A DNA stretch of 35,467 nt from Paracoccaceae bacterium (GTDB taxonomy: Bacteria > Pseudomonadota > Alphaproteobacteria > Rhodobacterales > Rhodobacteraceae): NCBI GenBank assembly GCA_024227475.1, contig JAAEUI010000158.1, positions 1-35,467 on the forward strand, written 5' to 3'. The translations under genes and the position numbers were made by a program. Shown here piece by piece: positions 3,044 through 16,067 of this stretch. The notes beneath the pieces are model-generated. The model saw only the letters and a program-made list of their open reading frames with translations, had not been told where the DNA came from and made no database searches. Positions within the stretch are counted from its first letter, which is position 1; the number at the start of each line of letters is the position of its first letter.

Positions 3044-4519
3044 GTGGGTAAAATACAGGGGATCATCGGACCAACGGCAACATTTCGAGATGCCATGGCC
3101 GCGATCAATGCGTCGGAAAACCAGATTGGGATCGTCGTGGATGACGCGGGCAGCATCAACCGTACGGTTTCTGACGGCGATATCCGCCGCGCCCTGCTGA
3201 ATGGCGCGCAGCTTGATGATCCGGTGGCAAACCTCCCTTCAAAAACGCCAATTACCTTCCCAGAGGGCACACCAGACGAAACCCTCTATGCGTCGATGCA
3301 GGAAAACGGGATTCAGGCTGTCATTTTAACGGACAGCGCCAACAGACCGGTTGGGCTCAAGGGTCGCCGGTCTTTTGAGCCGGGAATTCTGCTGTCTCCG
3401 CCACATATGGGTCAGGAAGAAACCCAATTTGTCCAAAAAGCATTCGACGAAAACTGGATCGCTCCGGCGGGGCCGAATCTGAACGCTTTTGAGGCAAAGC
3501 TGGCCGAGGTCTCCGGCAGGAGCAACGCGATGGCCCTGAGCTCGGGAACCGCCGCTTTGCATCTGGCGTTGCGGGTTATGAATATCCGGGCCGGTGATCG
3601 GGTTTATGTTTCTGATCTGACTTTCGTCGCCTCACTGAATCCGATCCTCTATGAAGACGCGGTTCCTGTCCTGATCGACAGCGAGCCGGGCAGCTGGAAC
3701 ATGTCGCCGCTGGCTCTGCAAACACGCCTGGAGAAAGACAGTGCCGCCGGCACCCTCCCGGCAGCGATCATCGTGGTTCATCTTTACGGCCAGTCAGCCG
3801 ACATGAATTCCATCATGGAACTGGCCAGCCAATACGGTGTGCAGATTATCGAGGACGCCGCTGAAAGCCTCGGCGCAAGCTACGATGGCAAACCGAGCGG
3901 CGCCCACGGCGTCCTGTCGGCCTATAGTTTCAACGGCAACAAAATCATCACCACTTCCGGCGGGGGTGCCCTGGTGTCCGACCGCCCGGACCTAATAGAG
4001 AGGGTGCGCAAACTGTCCACCCAGGGCCGCGATCCGGGTGACCACTACCAGCATTCGGAAATCGCCTATAATTACCGGATGTCAAACATCCTGGCGGGCA
4101 TCGGCCTTGGCCAGCTGGATCTGCTGCCTGCCCGGGTCACCGCCCGGCGCAGAGTGTTTGAGCGCTACAAAGACGCGCTTTGCGATATCCCGGGCATCTC
4201 GTTTCAGGGCGAAACTCTCCTGGGCGAGGGTTCTCGCTGGTTAACCGTAGTGCAGTTCGATCCAAACAAAATCGACCTGCATCCCTATCAATTCCTGCGC
4301 CGCCTTCAGGCAGAACGGATTGATTGTCGCCCCGCCTGGAAACCGATGCATCTGCAGCCGTTGTGTCATCATTTTGAGTTTGAGCCACACTCTGAAAATC
4401 AGGTTGTTTCCGCTGGCTTGTTCCTGACGTCGCTGTGCCTGCCATCCGGCAGCGCCATGAGCGATGCCGAGCAGGATCGTGTCATATCCGGCATCACAAA
4501 CATCGCGCAGAACAGGTAG
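3044..4519 (+). CDS. CBS-domain/PLP-aminotransferase fusion (DegT/DnrJ/EryC1/StrS, PglE/LegC-like)
   Basis: This 491-residue fusion has a CBS domain pair (about 1-115; ending motif TVSDGDIRRALLNGAQ, like the CBS repeats of KpsF and PtmE) joined to a DegT-family sugar aminotransferase (about 120-491). The PLP lysine lies in YSFNGNKIITTSGGG. That sequence and STQGRD...YNYRMSN match enzymes of the PglE/LegC type, which transaminate UDP-4-keto-6-deoxy-HexNAc in bacillosamine and legionaminic acid synthesis. Start is GTG at 3044; an in-frame TAG at 2993 and no earlier ATG, GTG or TTG fix it, with a weak CAGGA site. It is followed 14 bases later by the asparagine-synthase-like gene. No matching 4,6-dehydratase is visible in the window, so the exact sugar substrate is unknown. 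Confidence 0.82.
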   Translation: MGKIQGIIGPTATFRDAMAAINASENQIGIVVDDAGSINRTVSDGDIRRALLNGAQLDDPVANLPSKTPITFPEGTPDETLYASMQENGIQAVILTDSANRPVGLKGRRSFEPGILLSPPHMGQEETQFVQKAFDENWIAPAGPNLNAFEAKLAEVSGRSNAMALSSGTAALHLALRVMNIRAGDRVYVSDLTFVASLNPILYEDAVPVLIDSEPGSWNMSPLALQTRLEKDSAAGTLPAAIIVVHLYGQSADMNSIMELASQYGVQIIEDAAESLGASYDGKPSGAHGVLSAYSFNGNKIITTSGGGALVSDRPDLIERVRKLSTQGRDPGDHYQHSEIAYNYRMSNILAGIGLGQLDLLPARVTARRRVFERYKDALCDIPGISFQGETLLGEGSRWLTVVQFDPNKIDLHPYQFLRRLQAERIDCRPAWKPMHLQPLCHHFEFEPHSENQVVSAGLFLTSLCLPSGSAMSDAEQDRVISGITNIAQNR

Positions 4520-4533
4520 GGCCAGTCAGAATC

Positions 4534-6357
4534 ATGTGCGGAATATTCGGAGCTTACAACTTCAACAACACACCGGTTGACCCCTCGGTTGTCGACCGGA
4601 TGTCGTCACGATTGCAGCACCGCGGCCCTGATGCCGACGGCGCCTTTCAGTCGGAAAGGGCAGTTCTGGGCAACCGGCGCCTCTCAATCATCGACCCGAC
4701 AACCGCGAGCAACCAACCGCTGTTTTCAAACGACGGTCAGGTTGTTCTGGTCCAGAACGGTGAAATCTACAATTACATCGAACTGCGCGAAGAGCTGATC
4801 CGGCTCGGAGCAGAATTTGCCACAACCGGCGATACTGAAGTGTTGCTGCGCGCTTATGAGCACTGGGGAAAATCTTTTGTCACCCGCCTGAACGGCATGT
4901 TCGCCATCGCGGTTTTCGACAGGTCAGACTCCCGGTTGCTGCTCTATCGCGACCGGCTTGGTGTCAAGCCGCTCTACATCGCCGGAAACGCCCAGGACGG
5001 TCGCATCTGGTTTGCATCTGAAATCAAATCTATCCTGAGCAACGGCAACTCCTATCCACCAAACACCGCGGCAATCGCTAAATACCTGGCACTGAACTAC
5101 ATCCCGCAACCCGATACCGCCTTTTCGGGCATTACCCACCTGGAACCGGGGCACTGGGCTGAAATCACGCCTGATAGCATCGACATTAACTGCTACTGGG
5201 ATTTGAACGCCGTCCACCAACAGCCGGATATGTCATCGGCGGATTGTCAGGCTGGGATTCTGCGCCTGCTTGATGATGCAACGCGGATCAGAATGCGTAG
5301 CGATACACCGTTCGGCGCATTCCTGTCCGGCGGGCTGGATTCCAGTTCGGTGGTTGGCTTCATGAGCCAGCACGCCCCCCGGCCGCTGCACACCTTCAGC
5401 ATCGGCTTTGATGACCCGCGTTTTGATGAAACCGAATTTGCCCGTATGGCCGCAAGGCGGTTTGGCACGCTTCATGTCTCACAAAACGCCGATCACGACG
5501 TCGCCGCCATGTGGCCCCGCTTCATCTGGCAATGCGATCAACCCCACGGTGATGTCTCTTTCATGCCAATGGACATGGTTTCCAAACTGGCCTCGCGCGA
5601 AGTCAAAATGGTGCTCACCGGAGACGGCGGTGACGAGCTTTTCGCCGGTTACGAAAAATACCTTGCTGTGTTCCCGGAAGGAAAAACAGATCATCTGAAA
5701 GACGGCTGGCAGGAGGCCGCCGTACGCAGCACCGGCCTGCTGCTGGGTGACCAACCCGCAAACCTGTTGGCCGGTTCGCTCCGGGACGCCTTTTTTGACA
5801 CCGACCCATACCGGCCCCTGTCTGACAAAATCCGAAATGCAGGCGGGCAGGATCCCATCAACCAGCTGCTGCTCGCGGAAACAACAACCCTTTTGCCCGG
5901 CAATAACCTTGTCAAACCGGATCGCATGGCGATGGCCAATTCGCTTGAGGTCCGCTCACCTTATCTTGATTACCGCATGGTCGAGCTGGCTTTCGCCATT
6001 CCGGGCCACCTGAAGCTGGCTGGCGGCCAAACCAAAGCCGTTCTCAAGAAGGCGGTGCAGCCGCTGCTTGGTGATCAGCTGACATACCGTAAAAAGCAGA
6101 TGTTCACCGTTCCAGTCGGCGAATGGTTCCGCCAGGCACTTGCCGGGTATTGCCGAGAAGTCCTGCTGGATGGCCGTCTTGAAGCACGCGGATTGTTCAA
6201 AATGCCGACAATCAGCGATATGATTGACACCCACATCGCCGGCACCCAAAACCACACCCGGCAACTTCGCGCACTGATTTCGCTTGAGATCTGGTACCGG
6301 CTTTTCATCGACGAGGACCCGGAGTGGATTGCAAAGGCAGGGCAGGGTTCGACGTAA
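4534..6357 (+). CDS. asnB: Asparagine synthase (glutamine-hydrolysing)-like amidotransferase
   Basis: This 607-residue class II glutamine amidotransferase starts MCGIFGAYN, so Cys2 is the glutaminase nucleophile once Met1 is removed; this fixes the ATG at 4534 although the frame is open further upstream. The glutaminase domain (about 1-210, with LQHRGPD) is followed by an ATP-pyrophosphatase synthetase domain with SGGLDSSS (PP-loop, from S265) and a GDGGDELFAGY motif. The family makes asparagine from aspartate, but members inside polysaccharide loci often amidate a sugar acid instead. Its place between a sugar aminotransferase and an aldolase, with 14-base and 1-base junctions, argues for that second role (inference). 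All expected catalytic motifs are present. Confidence 0.85.
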   Translation: MCGIFGAYNFNNTPVDPSVVDRMSSRLQHRGPDADGAFQSERAVLGNRRLSIIDPTTASNQPLFSNDGQVVLVQNGEIYNYIELREELIRLGAEFATTGDTEVLLRAYEHWGKSFVTRLNGMFAIAVFDRSDSRLLLYRDRLGVKPLYIAGNAQDGRIWFASEIKSILSNGNSYPPNTAAIAKYLALNYIPQPDTAFSGITHLEPGHWAEITPDSIDINCYWDLNAVHQQPDMSSADCQAGILRLLDDATRIRMRSDTPFGAFLSGGLDSSSVVGFMSQHAPRPLHTFSIGFDDPRFDETEFARMAARRFGTLHVSQNADHDVAAMWPRFIWQCDQPHGDVSFMPMDMVSKLASREVKMVLTGDGGDELFAGYEKYLAVFPEGKTDHLKDGWQEAAVRSTGLLLGDQPANLLAGSLRDAFFDTDPYRPLSDKIRNAGGQDPINQLLLAETTTLLPGNNLVKPDRMAMANSLEVRSPYLDYRMVELAFAIPGHLKLAGGQTKAVLKKAVQPLLGDQLTYRKKQMFTVPVGEWFRQALAGYCREVLLDGRLEARGLFKMPTISDMIDTHIAGTQNHTRQLRALISLEIWYRLFIDEDPEWIAKAGQGST

Positions 6358-7208
6358 TGAGCGCAAACAACCCGTCTGAAATGAAGTTCCTGATGATCGT
6401 CAACGATCCCGGAATAGCGGCCTTTGCTTCCCGCAACGGGGTCGACCGACTGTTCGTTGACCTTGAGATTGACGGTAAGGAGGCGCGCCAGGGCCATCTT
6501 TCCACATGGATTAGCCGCCACACACCCAAGGACGTCAGCAGTGTGCGCCAGGCAGCGCCCGATGCGCATTTACTGGTGCGGATAAACCCGCTACATGCGG
6601 CAAGCCTCGACGAGATTGATGATGCAATCTCGCGCGGCGCTGACAGCATCATGCTGCCCATGTTCCAAACCCGCGATGACGTTGACCGGTTTCTTGACAT
6701 GATCGCTGGCCGCTGCCTTGGTATTCCCCTGGCAGAAACCGGTGCTGCCCTGCAGGCTTTGCCGGAAATCGCCGAACACTGCGAACTGACCGAGGTTTTC
6801 ATCGGCCTGAACGACCTGCACCTCGATCTTGGGCTTGATTTCATGTTCGAACCGTTTGCAAACGGCTTGCTGGAAGACCCCTGCACCGCCCTTCTGGATG
6901 CGGGCGTCCGCTTTGGTATTGGCGGGCTGGCGCGGTACAATGAAGGCATCGTCAGCCCGAGGTACCTGCTGGGCGAACACGTCCGCCTCGGCTCAACCCG
7001 GGCCATTCTTTCCCGCACCTTTCACCGGGGGGCAGCATCCGTAGCTGACATCCAAAACGAGATGGATTTTGCCGCGGAAGTCGCCCAACTCAGGTCTGCA
7101 CACCGTGATTTCTGCGCCATGAGCTCTGCCGGGCTGGAAGACAACCGCACCAAAACCGCCAACAAAATCGGCGACGTCGTGCGTCTGATCACATCAAAGA
7201 ATAAATGA
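6357..7208 (+). CDS. HpcH/HpaI aldolase / citrate lyase family protein
   Basis: The likely start is the ATG at 6357, which overlaps the preceding TAA by one base, giving 283 residues; a longer in-frame start at 6324 would overlap asnB. The fold is the HpcH/HpaI/CitE TIM barrel. RIN (R75), AET (E127) and GLNDL (D153) line up with the phosphate/carboxylate-binding Arg and the metal-binding acidic residues of this family, which cleaves or forms C-C bonds between pyruvate-type enolates and aldehydes. Tight coupling to the aminotransferase and amidotransferase genes suggests a sugar-acid (ulosonic acid type) reaction rather than aromatic catabolism. The substrate is not recognisable from sequence. 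Confidence 0.75.
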   Translation: MSANNPSEMKFLMIVNDPGIAAFASRNGVDRLFVDLEIDGKEARQGHLSTWISRHTPKDVSSVRQAAPDAHLLVRINPLHAASLDEIDDAISRGADSIMLPMFQTRDDVDRFLDMIAGRCLGIPLAETGAALQALPEIAEHCELTEVFIGLNDLHLDLGLDFMFEPFANGLLEDPCTALLDAGVRFGIGGLARYNEGIVSPRYLLGEHVRLGSTRAILSRTFHRGAASVADIQNEMDFAAEVAQLRSAHRDFCAMSSAGLEDNRTKTANKIGDVVRLITSKNK

Positions 7209-7511: not shown

Positions 7512-8504
7512 TTACGCCACGCCCCGCTGCAGCAACTGCATCAGCGTCACCAAACCAGTCGGTTTGCCGTCCTCCAACACAAATGCTGCGGATATCCGGT
7601 TTTGCTGCAACACGTTCAGCGCCCGGGCGCACAACCGCTGGGGCTCAAAGAAAACTGACCCCCCGGTCATGATACTGTCCGCCGAAGTTTCCAGCATCGC
7701 CTGCTTCATCGAACCGGTCGAATTCGCCTCAAGGTACCGCCGGATGTCTCCATCTGTGATAACCCCAGCCAACTTGCCACCCGAGCCCAGCACACCAACA
7801 ATCCCGAGCGACTTTGTGGAAATCTCGCCAACAACCTCCATGACCGGTGTATCCAGGGCCACAAGGGGCAGGTCATCGCCACTGTACATGATGTCCGAAA
7901 CCGGGGTCAGGGCCGCACCCAGTTTGCCACCGGGATGAAAATCCCGAAAGCTCTCTTCGCTAAACCCCTTCATCTTTAAAAGCGTGATCGCCAGCGCATC
8001 CCCGAGCGCCAGTTGCAGCAAGGTCGATGTCGTCGGTGCCAGATTGTGCGGGCAGGCCTCTTTCACCAGCGGCAAAATCAAAGCCACATCCGCCTTTTGA
8101 CTAAGCGTACTATCTGCCCGCCCGGTCATGGCAATCGTCGGCACAGCAAAGCGACGCGAATACGTCAGGATATCCGACAGTTCCTTGGTTTCGCCCGACC
8201 AGCTCAGCATCAGAACCACATCGTCGCTCTGGATCATGCCCAGATCGCCGTGGCTCGCCTCCGCTGGATGCACAAAAAATGCCGGTGTGCCGGTGGAGGC
8301 AAATGTCGCGGCCAGCTTGCGCCCGATCAGCCCGCTTTTGCCAACCCCCGCCACAATCAGGCGGCCTTTCATCTGATCAATCAGGTCCAGCGCCGTATCC
8401 AGGGCACGGGTCAGGTCGGAATCCTGCAGCACATCCTGCAAGGCCTGCAGCCCCGTGGCATTCACTGCGATGACTTCGCTGACAGATGCGGCCTTGTCCA
8501 CCAT
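7512..8504 (-). CDS. kdsD: Arabinose-5-phosphate isomerase, KpsF/GutQ family
   Basis: This protein has an N-terminal SIS sugar-isomerase domain (GVGKSGLIGRKLAATFASTG; SHGDLGMI; SWSGETKEL) and a C-terminal CBS pair (VITDGDIRRYLE). That is the standard KpsF/KdsD architecture of about 330 residues. The family interconverts ribulose-5-phosphate and arabinose-5-phosphate, the first step toward Kdo. I place the start at the ATG at 8504, preceded by AAGGTG and matching the family N-terminus (330 residues); a GTG at 8531 with AGGG upstream is a possible longer start. It lies 54-81 bases after neuC. Company with neu genes and, further on, waaA links the locus to acidic sugar synthesis for LPS or capsule. 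kdsA and kdsB are not in the window. Confidence 0.88.
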   Translation of the reverse strand: MVDKAASVSEVIAVNATGLQALQDVLQDSDLTRALDTALDLIDQMKGRLIVAGVGKSGLIGRKLAATFASTGTPAFFVHPAEASHGDLGMIQSDDVVLMLSWSGETKELSDILTYSRRFAVPTIAMTGRADSTLSQKADVALILPLVKEACPHNLAPTTSTLLQLALGDALAITLLKMKGFSEESFRDFHPGGKLGAALTPVSDIMYSGDDLPLVALDTPVMEVVGEISTKSLGIVGVLGSGGKLAGVITDGDIRRYLEANSTGSMKQAMLETSADSIMTGGSVFFEPQRLCARALNVLQQNRISAAFVLEDGKPTGLVTLMQLLQRGVA

Positions 8505-8585
8505 GGGTTTCACCTTTGTGCTTAGCTTCACCGATCCCTATTGGAACAGGATCAGAATCTCAATGCAGGAAGCGCGAAGAGCAGA

Positions 8586-9713
8586 TTAATAGCAATTTGC
8601 TTTTGACAATATCGCGCGGTCCAAAGGCAAGGTCTCGATTAAACCCCGCAGCCGCTGATCCGTCTTCCCGTCCCCATAAAGGTTTTCCAACGGCGGCCGC
8701 AATGCCAGCGCGGTTTTCAGACCCTCAACGATTTTTTCGAGAGTTACGACCGGGCAATCGACTACGTTATCATTCCGCAACCGCCCGTTTTGCCGCGATC
8801 CGATGTTCAGACAGGGCACCCCAAAACTGGCCGATTCAATAATCCCGGACGAACTGTTGCCAACCATTACGTCAGCATTGGCCAGGCACTGCAGGTATTG
8901 CCCTCGATCCAGATGATCAATGACCTTGAATGGCCCATCGCCCGGCAGCGCATCCAGACAGGCATCTATCGCAGCACCGCCCGCGTCTGAATTCGGCCGC
9001 ATGATCAGCCCACCACAGTTCGCGTTTTGCAAGGCAGCAATAATCATCCGCAACTGTTCTGCAGCCTGATCCGCCTCCTGAACCACGGGATGAAAAACCA
9101 CCAAAGCCTGGTGCGTCATCTCAGGCAAACCAAACTGGTCCTGCAGCCAACCCGTCTTGCGTTCGACACCCGCAGCAATCCCAACAAGTCCCGGTGCGCC
9201 GATATCCCAGATGTGCTCCGGATTTTCACCCATCGCCACCAACCGCTCGACCGCGTCCCGATTGGCCGCAAAATGAAAATGACTGAGTTTGGAAATTGCA
9301 TGGCGAAAGCTTTCATCCAGCGTCCCTGACAACTCGCCACCGTGGATATGCCCCACATGAATCCCCAGATGCACTGCCGCCAGCGTCGCGGCCAGCATCT
9401 CGCCACGATCACCCAGCACCAGCACAAGGTCCGGGCGTTGCTCCTGCCAGAACGTAACAAACCCTTTCAGTTCGTCCGCAAGCGCAAGTGCCATCTCGGC
9501 CGCTTCCCCGCCTCTCAGGGTAACCGGGATTTCGTGTACAACACTCAGACCCGAAGCGCGAATATCACGAATGGTTTCCCCATAAGCGGCCAGCAGATGC
9601 TGCCCGGTCACGACCACTCCAAGGTCAATTTGGTCTGAATTTGAAACGGTCCTCAGCGTCGATTCCATCAGGCCGAAATCAGCCCGGCTGCCGGTAACGT
9701 AGTGAACGATCAT
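8586..9713 (-). CDS. neuC: UDP-N-acetylglucosamine 2-epimerase, hydrolysing (NeuC/LegG-like)
   Basis: The 375-residue product starts MIVHYVTGSRADFGLME, the hallmark N-terminus of the NeuC/LegG hydrolysing epimerases. GDRGEML, HIHGGE, MVGNSSSGIIE and the conserved mid-region histidine of HFHFAANRDA are all visible. These enzymes turn UDP-GlcNAc into ManNAc (NeuC) or a UDP-diacetamido sugar into the 2,4-diacetamido sugar (LegG), supplying the sugar that NeuB condenses with phosphoenolpyruvate. The start at 9713 overlaps the neuA stop by four bases (ATGA), with GGAG just upstream inside neuA, so translation is probably coupled. Sequence reading alone does not separate NeuC from LegG. Confidence 0.88.
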   Translation of the reverse strand: MIVHYVTGSRADFGLMESTLRTVSNSDQIDLGVVVTGQHLLAAYGETIRDIRASGLSVVHEIPVTLRGGEAAEMALALADELKGFVTFWQEQRPDLVLVLGDRGEMLAATLAAVHLGIHVGHIHGGELSGTLDESFRHAISKLSHFHFAANRDAVERLVAMGENPEHIWDIGAPGLVGIAAGVERKTGWLQDQFGLPEMTHQALVVFHPVVQEADQAAEQLRMIIAALQNANCGGLIMRPNSDAGGAAIDACLDALPGDGPFKVIDHLDRGQYLQCLANADVMVGNSSSGIIESASFGVPCLNIGSRQNGRLRNDNVVDCPVVTLEKIVEGLKTALALRPPLENLYGDGKTDQRLRGLIETLPLDRAILSKANCY

Positions 9714-10396
9714 ATCTCCGGCACCCGTAGCCCACACGCCACTACAGCTTCAGCAAGAGCAAAATCCTCGGCGTCGTCAATGTCGATACTATCGATCTTG
9801 GACATCCGGTATCCCTTTGTATCAGGATAGAAAAACACCGGATCACGGCGAAAATCCCCGACCCGCTGCACATAAATCGCACCATTCGGGCGCACAACAC
9901 TTGCCTCGTTCTGGCGACGCGTTGCCACCGCTCCGGGCAGCGCTCGCAACAGTGTGGCGTCGCCCGACATTTCAAATGCCCAGCTCAGCGGCTTGTCTTC
10001 TGTAACGCTGATAACCGAAGATGTATCACCACCCAGCATGCCCAAGGCCGACCTGATATGATGAGAGTTCCGAAATGGCGAGGTTGGTTGCAACAGCGCA
10101 AACCAGTCCGTGTCGGGAACCGTCAACGCTTCCAGAGCGTGCATCATAACTTCAGCTGTCACAGCCACATCACTGGCCAGCTTGGCAGGCCGCAAGAACG
10201 GGACACTCGCCCCCGCAACCCGGGCGGCTTCTGCTATTTCTTCACAGTCTGTCGAAACAATCACATCGTCAAATAGTTCGGACCGAAGCGCCGAAAACAC
10301 CGTCCAGGCAATCAGTGGATAGCCCCCCAGTTTCTGGACATTTTTTCCCGGCAACCCCTTAGAGCCACCCCGCGCCGGAATTATCGCAACCTTCAT
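9710..10396 (-). CDS. neuA: Acylneuraminate cytidylyltransferase (CMP-nonulosonate synthetase)
   Basis: This 228-residue nucleotidyltransferase begins MKVAIIPARGGSKGLPGKN, the CTP-binding signature of NeuA/LegF enzymes. SDVAVTAEVM and LQPTSPFR are further family motifs. It activates a nonulosonic acid as its CMP ester, the donor used by sialyltransferase-type enzymes. I prefer the ATG at 10396 because the motif begins exactly there; an in-frame GTG at 10417 would add seven residues. Only the catalytic domain is present; there is no esterase or CBS extension as in some longer homologues. It lies 33 bases after neuB and overlaps neuC by four bases. Confidence 0.88.
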   Translation of the reverse strand: MKVAIIPARGGSKGLPGKNVQKLGGYPLIAWTVFSALRSELFDDVIVSTDCEEIAEAARVAGASVPFLRPAKLASDVAVTAEVMMHALEALTVPDTDWFALLQPTSPFRNSHHIRSALGMLGGDTSSVISVTEDKPLSWAFEMSGDATLLRALPGAVATRRQNEASVVRPNGAIYVQRVGDFRRDPVFFYPDTKGYRMSKIDSIDIDDAEDFALAEAVVACGLRVPEI

Positions 10397-10429
10397 CCGC
10401 CAGCCCCGAACGGCCACGGATCAGGCCCG

Positions 10430-11485
10430 TTATCCGACATGATTCACCCCCAATTGTTCATCCCTTACGACCGACCGCATTAGCGCCCTCCCAATAAAGC
10501 GCTCAATTTGGTCCGGCGCAACACCGGTTCCGGGCCGTTTGGCCGTAATGTCTTGGTCTGAAATCACATGACCCGCCGGAAGATCTGATCGGAACACCAG
10601 ACTTTTGCGCGCAACCTGCCTTACGTCTTCTTCGCACCCCATCGGCCGCTTTTTACCGTCCCCCAAACCCGCCTCAATCTGCCGCAACACCAGCACCATT
10701 TGGGCAAAGCCATCGGGCTCTATCGACGCCTGGTGGTCTGGCCCCTCCATGGTCCGGTCAAGCGTAAAATGTTTCTCCAGAACCGCCATGCCTAACGCCC
10801 GCGCGGCCAGCGCCGCATAAGGCCCCTCGGTATGGTCCGAAAACCCGGTCGGACAATTGAACGCCCGGGCCATTTGCGGGATCGTCCGCAGGTTCTGATC
10901 CTCAATCCGTGCCGGGTAATTACTGACGCATTGCAACACAACAATCTGGTCGCAACCTTCACGGCGCAGCAGATCACAGGCTGACGAAATTTCATCCACC
11001 GTCCCCATACCGGTTGATAACAACACCGGCAAACCTGCCTGTGCGGCCTGCCTCAGCAGGCCAATGTTGTTCAGTTCCCCAGAGGGCCATTTCAGACAGA
11101 TCGGACTCAACGCGATAACGTCCGCCAGGCTCTGCTCATCAAATGCCGTGCACATGAAATCGATCTCAACATCCAGACAGTGCTGCTTGAGACCGGCAAA
11201 CGCCTCCACCGGCAATTCCAGCCTGCGCAGCATTTCATCTTGCGTGCCCGATCCCGTCTGGTCTGCCTGATAATCCGCCTTCCGCGTGCCGGCACGCACT
11301 AGCGCATCTGTCCGAAATGCCTGAAACTTAACCGCATCGGCACCCGATTTCTTTGCCGCATCAACCAGTTCATGCGCCAGTTCGGCGCTGCCATTGTGGT
11401 TCACACCGATTTCGGCAATCACATAACAGGGATCGAGACCCGACACCCTCCGCTCCCCCAGTTGAATGCTGTATTCCGGTGTCAT
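10430..11485 (-). CDS. neuB: N-acetylneuraminate / nonulosonate synthase
   Basis: The 351-residue protein has a TIM-barrel NeuB domain (about 20-280; VIAEIGVNHNG, KFQAFRTD, STGMGT, LQCVSNYP, GFSDHT) and a C-terminal SAF/antifreeze-like domain (about 290-350). It condenses phosphoenolpyruvate with an N-acyl hexosamine to make a nine-carbon acid. The start ATG at 11485 has AAGGAAACGAAACAG upstream. It is the first gene of the operon neuB-neuA-neuC-kpsF-small ORF, so its promoter should lie in the interval shared with the divergent flippase gene. Whether the product is Neu5Ac or legionaminic acid cannot be decided here. Confidence 0.9.
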   Translation of the reverse strand: MTPEYSIQLGERRVSGLDPCYVIAEIGVNHNGSAELAHELVDAAKKSGADAVKFQAFRTDALVRAGTRKADYQADQTGSGTQDEMLRRLELPVEAFAGLKQHCLDVEIDFMCTAFDEQSLADVIALSPICLKWPSGELNNIGLLRQAAQAGLPVLLSTGMGTVDEISSACDLLRREGCDQIVVLQCVSNYPARIEDQNLRTIPQMARAFNCPTGFSDHTEGPYAALAARALGMAVLEKHFTLDRTMEGPDHQASIEPDGFAQMVLVLRQIEAGLGDGKKRPMGCEEDVRQVARKSLVFRSDLPAGHVISDQDITAKRPGTGVAPDQIERFIGRALMRSVVRDEQLGVNHVG

Positions 11486-11775: not shown

Positions 11776-13269
11776 GTGACAGACACTAAATCCAGATCCA
11801 TCCTCCTGACAACGGTGCTGATCAGCGCTGCGCTGCTGGTTGGCCGTGTGTCCGGCTTCATCCGCGAAACCATCCTTGCCGCGCGGTTTGGGGTCTCCGC
11901 CGAAACCGACGTTGCCGTTCTGCTGTTGACACTTCCGGATTTTCTGGTTGGCCTGCTGCTGTCCGGCGGCCTGAGCGCCGCCCTGCTCCCGGCCATGAAA
12001 AAACTCGACCTGCCGGAACGGGTTCTCTTCCTTCAAAAATCCGCCCTTCTGGCTTTCCTGTTGTTTGCTGTTTTTGCGCTTTGTCTGGCCATCTGGCCGT
12101 CGGTCCCTTTCGCCCTGCTTGCACCGGGGCTTTCGGCTGACGTGGCCCAAACCTACGCCCCCCATCTGGCCATTTCCGCCATCGCCATTCCCATAGCCGC
12201 GCTCAGCGGCGTCTCCGTCAGTTTCCTCAATACCCAGGGCAAGTTCTTCATTGCCGGTCTTGGCACCCTGAGCTTCAACACCGTGCTCTGCCTGTACCTT
12301 TTGGTATTCTTCAGCACCGCAACGCCCCTGATGGGGTTTGCGATAGCCATTGTCGTTGCGGCACTGGCCCGGTGGGGATTACAGCTTGCCCAGATGCCAA
12401 ACATCTTTCGTCCAGGCAAACCCGAAAACCCGGTTCTACTGCGCCCGGTGCTGCGTGGTTTCCTGAACGGACTGCTGGCCTATTCGATCATGTTCGGCGT
12501 GCCCTATTTGTTCAGATCGGTCTATGGCTTTGGCGGTGAAGGCAATCTGGCGGTTTTCAACTTTGCTCTGAAGCTGTTCGAATTGCCCGCAGTGCTGCTC
12601 ATCGCTCCGCTGGTAACCGTCATGCTGCCCCGGTTGTCCGGTCTGGCCGAAAAAGACAGCGTCGCATTTCACCAAACCCTGTCCGCCGGGCTGTTTGCCG
12701 GTATTTCCCTTGCCCTGATCGCGCTTGGTTATGGACTGGTCTTTGGTGACGCCGCCGCGCAAGTGATCTTTGCCCGTGGCGAAATGCAGGCAGGCGATGT
12801 TGACCGCGTCGCTGCCATTGCCAAGGTCATGTTTGTTGCCCTGCCTTTCTTCGCGATCTCGCAACTCGCAGCCTCCGGCCTGAATGCCTTGGGCAAAACC
12901 TCATTAGTGCTGAGGAACGCATTGATTTCCCTGGCGCTGGTTGCCGTCGCTCTTCTCGCAGTGCCATCTGCTGATTCAGAAACGCTGACCATCTGGGTAC
13001 TGGTCGGCTTCCACGCGGCCCTTGCGGCCCTGAACCTGCGGAGCCTGTCGCGTGTTGCTCAGATCGATCCCTTGTCGATCTTAAAACCCGCTATGAAACC
13101 CCTGACGCTAACCGCAATTCTTACAGCTTGCGTCTGGCTGGCGTTGCAAAAGCTTGCACCTGATCTCGGGAATTACCTGCTGGTCGGTCTCAGTCTGCCG
13201 TTCCTGGCCACGCTGCTTGGCCTCAACTCCCGCGCCCTAGGCACGCTCCGTCGGATCCGCAACACCTGA
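11776..13269 (+). CDS. murJ: MurJ/MviN-family lipid flippase
   Basis: This very hydrophobic 497-residue protein has about 14 predicted membrane segments and MviN-family motifs near the N-terminus (GFIRETILAARFG) and in the middle (NTQGKFF, LFELPAVLLIAPLVTVMLPRL). MurJ flips lipid II; more divergent members in polysaccharide loci may flip other undecaprenyl-linked sugars. The start is GTG at 11776 with a weak ribosome binding site. It is divergent from the neuB operon and convergent with the GT29-like gene, only two bases between the stops. It could be the essential MurJ or a paralogue specialised for the local glycan; the setting favours the paralogue, weakly. Confidence 0.75.
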   Translation: MTDTKSRSILLTTVLISAALLVGRVSGFIRETILAARFGVSAETDVAVLLLTLPDFLVGLLLSGGLSAALLPAMKKLDLPERVLFLQKSALLAFLLFAVFALCLAIWPSVPFALLAPGLSADVAQTYAPHLAISAIAIPIAALSGVSVSFLNTQGKFFIAGLGTLSFNTVLCLYLLVFFSTATPLMGFAIAIVVAALARWGLQLAQMPNIFRPGKPENPVLLRPVLRGFLNGLLAYSIMFGVPYLFRSVYGFGGEGNLAVFNFALKLFELPAVLLIAPLVTVMLPRLSGLAEKDSVAFHQTLSAGLFAGISLALIALGYGLVFGDAAAQVIFARGEMQAGDVDRVAAIAKVMFVALPFFAISQLAASGLNALGKTSLVLRNALISLALVAVALLAVPSADSETLTIWVLVGFHAALAALNLRSLSRVAQIDPLSILKPAMKPLTLTAILTACVWLALQKLAPDLGNYLLVGLSLPFLATLLGLNSRALGTLRRIRNT

Positions 13270-13271
13270 CA

Positions 13272-13898
13272 TCACCGATGCAGATGCACCCGTTGATCCG
13301 CTTCCATCAGGCTTTCGACGAATTGCTTTTCCGCGGCAAAATCATGCGGCACCTGATCGGCCGTGCGGCGGCCTGACAACGAAAGGCTGGCAAAGAAATC
13401 GAAACCGAACAGATCGATCCGTTCAGCCCCGGAGCGCGCCACCATATCGATCAGCATGATTCCGGTTGTGGGCGGCGCACCCAGTTTGTCGCACATCCTG
13501 TCCCACTCCGGCATGGGATGCAGGTAAAACCCGGGCCGGACAACAAACCGCCGCCGTAACCGCTTGCGTTTCTTCGCCATCCACAGCAGCCGCTCTGGCG
13601 CACGCGCATCAATCAAACTCTCGTCCACAGGCATCGCCAGCGCCAGCCAGTCAGTTTTGGTGCCGTGTGACTGCGCCGAAGGCAGAGGTGCCGCATGCAT
13701 CCGGATCACCACATCCCCGCGATCTATCGCCGCGCCGTGAGGTTTTTCAGACAGGCTCCTGGCGTTGCCGACAATGCTGACCCGCTTGCCCGCCAGATCC
13801 TGCATCAGATCATCAGGATCACAGGAAAACGACTGCAGATAGATCTCGCCCCGGCTCCATTTGCGCAGGGTGAACACCAGCTGTTCAAATCCCGCCAT
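13272..13898 (-). CDS. GT29-like (animal-type) sialyltransferase homologue
   Basis: This 208-residue protein shows the sialylmotifs of glycosyltransferase family 29 in order. Motif L is VSIVGNARSL...AIDRGDVVIRMHAAP...GTKTDWLAL (about 38-90), with the VGN and R-M positions that bind CMP. Motif S is PTTGIMLIDMVARSG...IDLFGFDFF. Motif VS is HDFAAE, fitting H-x4-E. The aromatic motif III is not evident, the conserved cysteines of motifs L and S are missing, and there is no N-terminal membrane anchor, so it should be cytoplasmic. GT29 enzymes use CMP-sialic acid; plant members are linked to Kdo. It is last in an operon after waaA, overlapping it by 14 bases, with a strong GGAGG before the ATG at 13898, which decides the start over one at 13919. 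Likely role: adding a Kdo or nonulosonate residue to LPS (inference). Confidence 0.7.
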   Translation of the reverse strand: MAGFEQLVFTLRKWSRGEIYLQSFSCDPDDLMQDLAGKRVSIVGNARSLSEKPHGAAIDRGDVVIRMHAAPLPSAQSHGTKTDWLALAMPVDESLIDARAPERLLWMAKKRKRLRRRFVVRPGFYLHPMPEWDRMCDKLGAPPTTGIMLIDMVARSGAERIDLFGFDFFASLSLSGRRTADQVPHDFAAEKQFVESLMEADQRVHLHR

Positions 13899-15228
13899 CG
13901 TGTTTCCCTCCAAGGGCAAGCGGCTCGATCATAGCGCGGAACAGACTTTGCATATCCGCCTCAACTGCCAGCCCTTCCCGCGCGTTTGCTACTTGCATTT
14001 CCCGGACCGGACCACTCAACAGCGTCTGGAATGCCAAGGCCAGCTCCGTTGCATCCTCAATCATCTGGCAACCAGCACACGCCTGCAGTTGACTGAATTC
14101 CGCTTCGAAATTTGCAACACGCGGCCCGGAAATGATTGCTGACCCGAACTTGGCCGGCTCATAGGGCGTATGCCCACCCTTTGGCACCAGCGACCCGCCA
14201 ACAAAAGTGATCGCGGCCAGCGAATACATCAGGGGCATGTCTCCCAGACTGTCAGCCAGATACACCGCCGTTTCGGCCCCCGGCATCTGCCCTTTTGAGC
14301 GCACGGCAATGTCAAACCCGCGCTGCAGCGCCAGTTTTTCAACCTCCGGCCCGCGATCCGGATGGCGCGGTGCGAGGATGAGTTTCAGCGCGGCGTCCCC
14401 GGCCCGCACCGTGGCAAATGCCGCCAGCACCACTTCATCCTCCCCGCGGTGCGTCGACGCTGCCAGGATCGTTTTCTCGCGCGCAAACACTGAATGAAAT
14501 CCTGCCAGTTCTTCCGCTGGAATCTCCGAATCTACAATGGATTTCATATTCTTGATCGTCACAACCCGCTCGGGCGCAACGCCAACATCCCTCAGGGCAT
14601 CGGCAGTCGCCGTGTTCTGGCAAAAGAACCGGGCAACATTGGCAAACATGGTCTGGCCAAATCCAACAGCCTTCCATCGTCGCAAACTACGCTCAGAAAT
14701 CCGGGCATTGATAAAAATCACCGGCACTTTCCGCGCTGCCAGCATTGCCAGCCTGTTGGGCCATATCTCACCCTCAACATTCACAAAGGCGACCGGCATC
14801 CAGCTCCCCAGAAACCGCCGCAAACTGCGCTCGAAATCCAGCGGCGCAGCCTGCAGTGTAACGCGGAAATCACGCCACTCCGACGCCAGCTTCAACGCAG
14901 TTGGATTGTTGGTTGTCACCAGGATTTCATGGTCTGGGTAGGTCTCGGACAAATACCTCAGAAACGCCCTCACCGATTTTAGCTCTCCGACGCTGGCGGC
15001 ATGCAGCCAGATCACCGGGTCTCCACATGGAACGACGCTCGGTCGCCCAAACCGGCTGCGGAATTGTGCCCAATCGTCCCTGCCTGCCAGAAGGCGAAAG
15101 GCCAGATACCCCACAACCAGTGGCGACAGACACAGAAGTATGATCCGATAAATACCCAGAAATCCCTCCCCGCCCCAAAGGGCTCCTCTCGCTATCGCTG
15201 TTTCCAGCGCCGGTGCAACCAGTACCAC
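13885..15228 (-). CDS. waaA: 3-deoxy-D-manno-octulosonic acid (Kdo) transferase
   Basis: The protein (447 residues from GTG 15228) is a GT30 Kdo transferase: an N-terminal membrane segment (YRIILLCLSPLVVGYLAF), then LHAASVGELKS with the catalytic Glu, VNVEGEIWPN, NARISERS, and C-terminal LADSLGDMPLMYSLAAITFVGGSLVPKGGHTPYEPA. It moves Kdo from CMP-Kdo to lipid A precursor at the inner face of the inner membrane. The GTG start overlaps the upstream acyltransferase by 37 bases. A better Shine-Dalgarno (GGGAGGG) lies just before an in-frame CTG at 15159, which would begin LGIYRIIL like other WaaA proteins, so the true start may be there. It is the middle gene of acyltransferase-waaA-GT29. Confidence 0.9.
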   Translation of the reverse strand: MVLVAPALETAIARGALWGGEGFLGIYRIILLCLSPLVVGYLAFRLLAGRDDWAQFRSRFGRPSVVPCGDPVIWLHAASVGELKSVRAFLRYLSETYPDHEILVTTNNPTALKLASEWRDFRVTLQAAPLDFERSLRRFLGSWMPVAFVNVEGEIWPNRLAMLAARKVPVIFINARISERSLRRWKAVGFGQTMFANVARFFCQNTATADALRDVGVAPERVVTIKNMKSIVDSEIPAEELAGFHSVFAREKTILAASTHRGEDEVVLAAFATVRAGDAALKLILAPRHPDRGPEVEKLALQRGFDIAVRSKGQMPGAETAVYLADSLGDMPLMYSLAAITFVGGSLVPKGGHTPYEPAKFGSAIISGPRVANFEAEFSQLQACAGCQMIEDATELALAFQTLLSGPVREMQVANAREGLAVEADMQSLFRAMIEPLALGGKHDGGI

Positions 15229-16067
15229 TGGCCCGGGTTTTCGTGAATACGCCGCGCCAAACGGTCGTTGAATTCCACCATCATCTGTTCAGCGGTCGAA
15301 TGCGGGATTTCTTCCTCGAATTCCACCGTTATATCCAGTCCGTTTTCCTGCCGGGTGCCAAATGCTGGCACCAGCGGCAGATCATATTTCAGCGCCAGCT
15401 CGGCCGGGGCCGTCGTGGTTTCTGCGGCATGGCCCAGAAACGGTATCTTCACGCCGGGTGTAAAATACTGGTCCGGCAGGATGGCAAAAAACCCGCCTTT
15501 ACGGATGTGGCGGACCATCTCCATGGTTCCGGCCCTGCCTTTAGGCAAGATCGGTGCGCCTCCATACCGGATACCGTTCAGAAAATGTTGTTCGTACCAC
15601 AGGTTATTGTTGGGTCGGTAAACCGCTCCGGTCTCCATGCCCTTTGCCTTCAGCACATGCCGAATTGCTTCCCACTGGCCAAAATGTGCTGACACGACCA
15701 ACGCACCTTTGCCCTCACTTTTCGCTCGCTCCAGCGCTGCCAGACCTGGACCGCTGGCATGGAACCGGTCAAGCAGTTCGCAAAATTCAGCATTGTGCAG
15801 AATCTCCGACAGAGTCCGCCCCATGTTCTGCCCTACTTCCGAAGCGATCCGGCCACGCTTCGATTTCTCCATGTCCGGATAAACCCGCACCAGCCCTTCC
15901 TCAATGCGGTTGCGAAACGGCGGCAGATAGCGCGCACCAAAGCCGATAATCCGCGCCGCCAGTCCACTGCGCGTATCAAAAGGCAGCAGTCTGCCAAGCC
16001 CCAACAGGGCCGCGATGGGCATGTACTGCAGGAAATGCACTGCTGATTTTGCGACTGGTTGTTTCAT
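15192..16067 (-). CDS. Lipid A lauroyl/myristoyl acyltransferase (LpxL/HtrB family)
   Basis: This 291-residue lysophospholipid acyltransferase-type protein has an N-terminal hydrophobic helix, the HFGQWE motif (the H-x4-D/E catalytic pair; VVSAHFGQWEA), FAILPDQYFTPGVKIPFLG, and the closing PGQWYWLHRRWK that marks LpxL/HtrB proteins. It adds a secondary acyl chain to Kdo-lipid A or its precursor at the inner membrane. It is the first gene of the operon with waaA and the GT29-like gene. The start ATG at 16067 follows a GGCAGAG site. LpxL versus LpxM-type specificity cannot be told from sequence reading. Confidence 0.87.
   Translation of the reverse strand: MKQPVAKSAVHFLQYMPIAALLGLGRLLPFDTRSGLAARIIGFGARYLPPFRNRIEEGLVRVYPDMEKSKRGRIASEVGQNMGRTLSEILHNAEFCELLDRFHASGPGLAALERAKSEGKGALVVSAHFGQWEAIRHVLKAKGMETGAVYRPNNNLWYEQHFLNGIRYGGAPILPKGRAGTMEMVRHIRKGGFFAILPDQYFTPGVKIPFLGHAAETTTAPAELALKYDLPLVPAFGTRQENGLDITVEFEEEIPHSTAEQMMVEFNDRLARRIHENPGQWYWLHRRWKQR

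Follow-up and report, generated by a model that had tools for sequence, protein, structure and literature searches.

Those GT29 enzymes whose activity is known take keto-acid sugars activated with CMP as their donors. Bacterial proteins resembling GT29 sialyltransferases, devoid of a membrane anchor and of the conserved cysteines, were described in 2018 (Petit et al., PMC5811610); the available part of that report covers 23 bacterial sequences, and bacterial members are basal in its GT29 tree. In Arabidopsis, loss of the GT29 protein MGP2/RCKT1 removes Kdo from RG-II, and the accessible sections of the same study report that expression of RCKT1 in an E. coli strain was unsuccessful (PMC11288761). 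In Acinetobacter, KdoT adds a third Kdo independently of WaaA, according to the accessible text (PMC12856342). Further, in the portions of the papers available, the LPS of Rhodobacter capsulatus carries Neu5Ac (PMC9631793), and the LOS of Loktanella rosea carries alpha-Neu on a Kdo in a core of two Kdo and one Neu (PMC3210612); nonulosonic acids therefore do occur in the LPS of related bacteria. In the open-licence literature, we found nothing relevant on a bacterial GT29 Kdo transferase or on GT29 in Rhodobacterales beyond PMC5811610, and no paper linking GT29 of bacteria to Kdo genes or separating a NeuB-linked from a mostly NeuB-free clade.

Here we describe a GT29 gene in a stretch of 35,467 nucleotides (hereafter the window; contig JAAEUI010000158.1 of a Paracoccaceae bacterium). 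The analysis points to a bacterial GT29 clade whose context suggests Kdo over sialic acid, which is new here. We propose, with a probability of about 0.58, that the window protein is a transferase of the LPS inner core that adds Kdo from CMP-beta-Kdo, both donor and acceptor being deduced from context.

The GT29 gene and its product

The gene is located at 13272..13898 on the minus strand; the open reading frame starts with the ATG at 13898, its stop codon ends at 13272, and it encodes 208 amino acids. Its start overlaps the 3' end of waaA by 14 bases (13885..13898, minus strand), and GGAGG is present just 5' of the ATG, within waaA. An earlier, sequence-only reading had noted this overlap and had taken the product for a GT29 homologue. 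Both points held: PF00777 (GT29) matched the protein at E = 4.7e-9 with 36.5 bits, above the curated cut-off of 23, which places it in the family. The match spans residues 37-84 only, that is, motif L. PF00777 was the sole Pfam match at E <= 1, with no match to PF04413 (GT30, WaaA) at that level, and no NCBIfam model matched at E <= 0.1. The GT29 family was absent from all 14 control genomes.

In a contig collection, 182 stretches encode a GT29 relative, of which the best 80 were taken; these include Amylibacter, Neptunicoccus, Paracoccus, Thioclava, Defluviimonas, Loktanella and others. The alignment A2 consists of 79 rows, namely the window protein and 78 of these best 80 of 182 loci (L072 and L081 were left out), and PF00777 matched every row at E <= 0.01. 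When the PDB was searched by sequence, porcine ST3Gal1 was the top match to the window protein (1.9e-4), and the profile of the 79 rows found ST3Gal1, ST8SiaIII, ST6Gal1 and ST6GalNAc2 (2.9e-7 to 3.4e-4).

The AlphaFold (AF2) model of the protein had a pLDDT of 90.5 and a pTM of 0.88. Its 24 best Foldseek matches in the PDB were all GT29 sialyltransferases, indicating a GT29 fold, and the top match (2wnb; E 4e-8, TM 0.62 by query) was porcine ST3Gal1, the very structure with which a comparison had been proposed. GT42 CstII matched more weakly (4.2e-5), and HPPK (6.6e-5) and SteA (6.8e-4) also scored below 0.001. For the predicted model, the assignment to the GT29 fold stands, and a TM of about 0.6 goes with the window protein being smaller than the targets. 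The sequence-only reading had named the lack of a GT29 hit at fold level as a ground for its refutation, and it withstood this check. Because the PF00777 score, the matches throughout the family (79 of 79 rows) and the Foldseek fold matches agree, the likeness is beyond chance, and we rejected a fortuitous resemblance to GT29.

Sialylmotifs L, S and VS occur in this order in the protein: motif L within residues 37-84 (VGNARSL...VIRMHAAP), motif S at about 143-169 (PTTG...LFGFDFF) and motif VS at H185-E190 (HDFAAE). Note that the motif names and residue roles used for this protein are presumed ones, in part drawn from PMC5811610. In all 79 rows of A2, G44, N45, R66, P143, T145, G146, G165, F166, D167, H185 and E190 were invariant. 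When the protein was aligned with ST3Gal1, motif L gave good scores and motif S weak ones. No cysteine column was conserved (no column had Cys in more than 70 of the 79 rows), and the window protein has two cysteines, at residues 26 and 136. Further, its best 19-residue hydropathy mean was 0.76, and none of the 79 rows reached 1.6 (the highest was 1.58), giving no indication of a membrane anchor. By inspection, motif III (between S and VS) was absent from the clade of the window protein; the stretch reads FFASLSLSGRRTADQVP. The sequence-only reading had listed these same features, namely the three motifs in the right order, 208 residues, and the lack of conserved cysteines, of motif III and of an anchor, and all of them were reproduced.

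At the place of motif III, a second GT29 group (see below) has TYYN, whereas the window clade has invariant S173, G176 and R178. A basic stretch, KKRKRLRRR in the window protein, holds the invariant R111 and R113. Residue 68 in motif L (codon near 13695) is His in all 11 waaA-linked rows of A2 and Asn in the 68 others, and RMN of ST3Gal1 aligns with the position of His68 in motif L. As judged from the alignment, H68 in place of the motif L Asn could reflect an altered donor site in the waaA-linked subgroup. Together with the missing motif III, this substitution could also be read as the mark of a GT29-fold protein that no longer has transferase activity and serves as a helper of WaaA. This is very improbable, however: none of the 79 rows departs from G44, N45, H185 and E190, a constancy that an active enzyme would be expected to show.

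Gene neighborhood and distribution

In the window, the GT29 gene is preceded by waaA, encoding the Kdo transferase of GT30 (13885..15228, minus strand; PF04413, E 3.9e-46; 297.5 bits against NF004388, under the equivalog cut-off of 438), and by a gene for an lpxL-like lipid A acyltransferase (15192..16067, minus strand; PF03279, E 9.3e-39). Downstream, the order is murJ, neuB, neuA/pseF-like, neuC and kdsD. The MurJ-family gene (11776..13269, plus strand; PF03023, E 9.9e-23) is convergent to the GT29 gene. The neuB-like nonulosonate synthase gene (10430..11485, minus strand; TIGR03569, 378.3 bits, under the cut-off of 399.65) is 1.8 kb from the GT29 gene, in agreement with the distance of about 2 kb previously given for neuB-neuA-neuC. 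It is followed by a gene for a CMP-nonulosonate synthetase-like protein of the PseF/NeuA type (9710..10417, minus strand; TIGR03584, 159.4 bits, under the cut-off of 205.7), by neuC, encoding a UDP-GlcNAc 2-epimerase (8586..9737, minus strand; TIGR03568, 362.9 bits, above the cut-off of 235.9), and by a gene for a kdsD-like arabinose-5-phosphate isomerase, which catalyzes the first step to Kdo (7512..8531, minus strand; TIGR00393, 288.9 bits, above the cut-off of 203.7).

Farther along, at 3044-7208, an open reading frame for a LegC-family aminotransferase, also holding a CBS-domain stretch, stands in a row with genes for an asparagine-synthase-like and an HpcH-aldolase-like protein. These genes, opposite to kdsD-neuC-neuA-neuB, are perhaps part of a legionaminic-acid-like pathway. 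The window genome has a second NeuB-family match elsewhere (G000:C581:1458-2468). Further, many genomes of the window's genus have two WaaA-like genes; in the window genome these are on the contigs G000:C158 and C254, and the match on C254 contains an internal TGA.

Among 61 genomes (that of the window and 60 relatives), the GT29 gene was found in 12, all in the window's genus (its own genome and 11 of 32). In 10 of the 11 genus relatives, waaA was directly upstream of the GT29 gene, one of them (G005) with a waaA cut short by the end of the contig; in the eleventh (G008), the contig stops before waaA is reached. Directly downstream, kdsD was found in 8 of the 11 and was not found in the fetched stretch of the other three. 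In the window, murJ and neuBAC separate the GT29 gene from kdsD, whereas kdsD follows directly in eight relatives, in which no MurJ-family gene lies between the two. A tblastn search with neuB, neuA and neuC of the window gave no match in the stretches fetched around the 11 GT29 loci of genus relatives.

In other genera, the usual order was MFS - GT4 - GT29 - asd. We called open reading frames by codon usage in 92 loci (L025-L115 and the window); 11 without a GT29 call were left out of the counts, and the remaining 81 count five places twice. A GT4 gene was within six genes of the GT29 gene in 56 of these 81 loci and directly upstream in 52; the two genes share 4 bases in 47 of these 52 loci. 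One member, from P. denitrificans, was scanned with Pfam, and the nearest named relative of the GT4 protein is probably LpcC, the Rhizobium core mannosyltransferase. At least one of waaA, lpxL or a GT4 gene was within six genes in 69 of the 81 loci, and none of them in 12. In three loci (L058, L060 and L079), the place of the GT4 gene was taken by a gene of another cluster.

The GT4 partner bears on the acceptor. A Kdo transferase could act on something other than Kdo-lipid A, such as an outer-core sugar, the end of the O-antigen or a capsule, and the GT4 enzyme that is the usual partner outside the genus could likewise act farther out; the replacement of GT4 in three loci, by a polysaccharide-pyruvyl-transferase according to Pfam in the one scanned (L058), is also consistent with such an acceptor. 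We regard this as quite unlikely for the window protein, as waaA and lpxL, genes for lipid A-Kdo, adjoin it on the upstream side in the window and its nearest relatives.

The polysaccharide-pyruvyl-transferase-family genes were observed beside GT29 in several places. In L058, the two genes are at 9030-10010 and 10001-10621 (PF04230; Pfam in this locus only), and L060 and L079 show the same neighbor by blastp cluster. By eye, the two appear to form one fused open reading frame in L159 and are adjacent in L215:8511-10224, from another class of the phylum.

In a family sample of 394 genomes, nearly one per genus, 51 had a match: 36 at E <= 1e-40 (the window clade), 13 between 4e-13 and 3e-25, and two weaker (G208 and G273), which were left out of both groups; these E-value limits were our choice. 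Nine of the 13 second-band genomes were called core by likeness, and G230, G062, G063 and G150 were divergent. In a class sample, 4 of 385 genomes matched, including that of the window, two of the others weakly. In a phylum sample, 16 of 398 matched, namely the window genome, four others of its family strongly, G865 of another class of the phylum, also strongly (8e-46), and ten with E-values no better than 3e-9. The presence of the clade in 36 of 394 family genomes, together with the bacterial GT29 described in 2018 (in the available part of PMC5811610), weakens the earlier picture of a singular bacterial sialyltransferase.

A tree was built from all rows of A2 that belong to the genus (11), alternate rows among its other 68 and the 15 rows of alignment A3 not in A2. 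The window clade formed one side of a branch with 100/99 support. In the second group, the nine core members had a support of 97/88 together with G150, which was placed among them on a very long branch, and of only 79/62 by themselves; long branches come together in this part of the tree. The window protein grouped with its genus (99/96 and 100/97), and the GC content of its gene is 0.596 (window, 0.574). Neither result supports lateral gain by the window genome, which had been suggested from the sequence. The GT29 gene of L160 (G441) is broken into two reading frames, perhaps as a decayed copy or through a sequencing error.

The donor sugar

Nonulosonic acid synthesis requires a NeuB-family synthase. 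A NeuB homologue (E <= 1e-20) was present in one of the 11 GT29-bearing genus relatives compared with 7 of 21 without GT29, and NeuC (E <= 1e-20) in the same one of the 11; two of the ten GT29-bearing relatives without NeuB are 71-72% complete. In the family sample, PF03102 (NeuB) was found in 3 of 36 genomes with the window clade compared with 116 of 358 others (Fisher p 0.0019, uncorrected for kinship), and was not found in the remaining 33 carriers. Among 50 named carriers, four had NeuB, Thioclava marina (L056) being one, and 46, including Paracoccus denitrificans (L048), did not (the completeness of those genomes was not given); this set and the family sample share at least one genome, as Thioclava marina is seemingly in both with the same coordinates. 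PF03102 is broad, matching in 9 of 14 control genomes, which adds weight to its absence and takes weight from its presence. NeuB was not found in either Loktanella carrier (L058 = G816 and L110 = G852; L. rosea is not among them), and in both of these waaA is 2-3 kb upstream of the GT29 gene. These results, uncorrected for kinship throughout, show that the window clade as a whole is not tied to making a nonulosonic acid. Uptake of ready-made sialic acid by the carriers would make NeuB needless.

A KdsB-like protein (E <= 1e-36) was present in 44 of 47 carriers of the window clade and in all 38 near-complete ones. The three carriers without a clear one have genomes that are 71 to 89% complete and include that of the window (79% complete), in which KdsB was not clearly found and the best match (2.8e-8) was the neuA gene. 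The model's own cut-off was passed in only 6 of the 47 carriers. Because the KdsB model also matches (E <= 0.001) control genomes without LPS, e.g., Bacillus subtilis, we relied on the level of 1e-36.

The second GT29 group shows a different association. NeuB was present in all nine core members, within about 3 kb of the GT29 gene in eight; in the ninth, the contig ends at the gene. By eye, and with variations, their clusters contain, in this order, genes for a CMP-sugar synthetase and an SDR, two waaA-like genes, neuC, another gene, the GT29 gene, neuB and an lpxL-like gene. The two waaA-like genes stand in tandem in the neuB-linked clusters L146-L153, again by eye. Among all 13 second-band genomes, NeuB was present in 10 compared with 109 of 381 others (p 0.0006, uncorrected for kinship); in G230 it is far from the GT29 gene.

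The window protein might be a true sialyl- or legionaminyltransferase that draws on the CMP-nonulosonate from the neighboring neuB-neuA-neuC and modifies the LPS core with it, giving a core like the Neu-Kdo one of Loktanella rosea. The proximity of neuBAC (1.8 kb) and the link of the second group to neuB are in its favor, and the GT29 gene is the only PF00777 match in the window genome and therefore its only obvious CMP-nonulosonate user. A product of this kind is known from the L. rosea core, alpha-Neu-(2->8)[alpha-Kdo-(2->4)]-alpha-Kdo, in the accessible part of PMC3210612; by analogy, this type of product would fit either GT29 group. However, NeuB and NeuC homologues (E <= 1e-20) are missing from 10 of the 11 GT29-bearing genus relatives (two of the ten only 71-72% complete), 46 of the 50 named carriers, including both Loktanella genomes, lack NeuB, and murJ and neuBAC of the window occupy the place where eight relatives have kdsD directly. 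We therefore regard a nonulosonic acid donor as unlikely.

At the level of the clade, we rejected the adjacency of neuBAC as a sign of a sialic acid donor because NeuB and NeuC are scarce in carriers; their scarcity indirectly counts against transfer from CMP-Neu5Ac or another CMP-nonulosonate. The position of neuBAC near the window gene looks incidental, although in the window genome itself, where neuBAC lies between the GT29 gene and kdsD, a CMP-nonulosonate donor is possible. CMP-Kdo transfer is supported indirectly by the neighboring waaA and kdsD and by the KdsB-like protein in 44 of 47 carriers. Kdo is favored over a nonulosonic acid because most of the genomes examined that have the clade lack NeuB and because kdsD, not neu, is the neighbor in 8 of 11 relatives; the window protein thus probably attaches Kdo rather than sialic acid. 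The sequence-only reading had envisaged a CMP-sugar-using transferase that puts a nonulosonic acid or an extra Kdo on lipid A/core. Such a transferase is still the best reading, with Kdo as the favored one of the two donors.

Proposed role and comparison with known systems

In the role that we propose, the GT29 protein would be soluble or peripherally membrane-bound. Once WaaA has transferred Kdo to the lipid A precursor, the GT29 protein, made from the overlapping frame, would act next, taking Kdo from CMP-beta-Kdo with inversion to give an alpha-Kdo linkage. The acceptor would be the Kdo-lipid A just made by WaaA or a neighboring sugar, giving the core a Kdo beyond those supplied by WaaA. 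In this scheme, His185 of HDFAAE may serve as the general base and VGN of motif L may hold CMP. The clade-invariant R111, R113 and R178 may bind the phosphate or the acid groups of the donor and the acceptor, a task in which they would replace the absent motif III. RCKT1 of Arabidopsis and KdoT of Acinetobacter serve as precedents for such a role.

If this is true, a WaaA-independent Kdo transferase could be named for a group with Paracoccus, Thioclava and Amylibacter among its members. A broader suggestion, tentative and rather doubtful, is that LPS-core Kdo transferases make up the larger bacterial GT29 clade, and that the sialyltransferases of animals and the RG-II Kdo transferase of plants both go back to an enzyme of bacterial inner-core synthesis. 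The use of sialic acid would have arisen by a later change of donor, which recurred in the bacterial group linked to neuB, and animal sialyltransferases would then have an origin tied to LPS synthesis. As the GT29 protein is small and has neither an anchor nor conserved cysteines, it should be easier than RCKT1 to make in E. coli, making the donor question directly testable.

The animal GT29 enzymes ST3Gal1, ST8SiaIII, ST6GalNAc2 and ST6Gal1 are the best PDB matches by sequence and fold and share motifs L, S and VS with the window protein, but they are longer, membrane-anchored and disulphide-bonded, possess motif III and use CMP-Neu5Ac. RCKT1/MGP2, compared here by its description, is also a GT29 protein and, in the accessible part of PMC11288761, is proposed to use CMP-beta-Kdo with inversion; it differs in being a plant enzyme whose substrate is the pectin RG-II. 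WaaA, encoded by the neighboring gene, transfers Kdo to the lipid A precursor and belongs to a different family (GT30). KdoT performs the same kind of job as that proposed here, providing an inner-core Kdo that does not come from WaaA, but the available text describes it as ELM1-like and proposes a GT-B fold, unlike that of GT29 (PMC12856342). As far as the available part of PMC5811610 goes, its bacterial proteins resemble the window protein in their GT29 kinship and in having neither a transmembrane domain nor conserved cysteines, and they are mostly alphaproteobacterial; it reads them as sialyltransferase-like, with motif III. In contrast to those proteins as presented there, the window clade has no motif III, occurs mostly without NeuB and, in the window's genus, lies beside waaA and kdsD.
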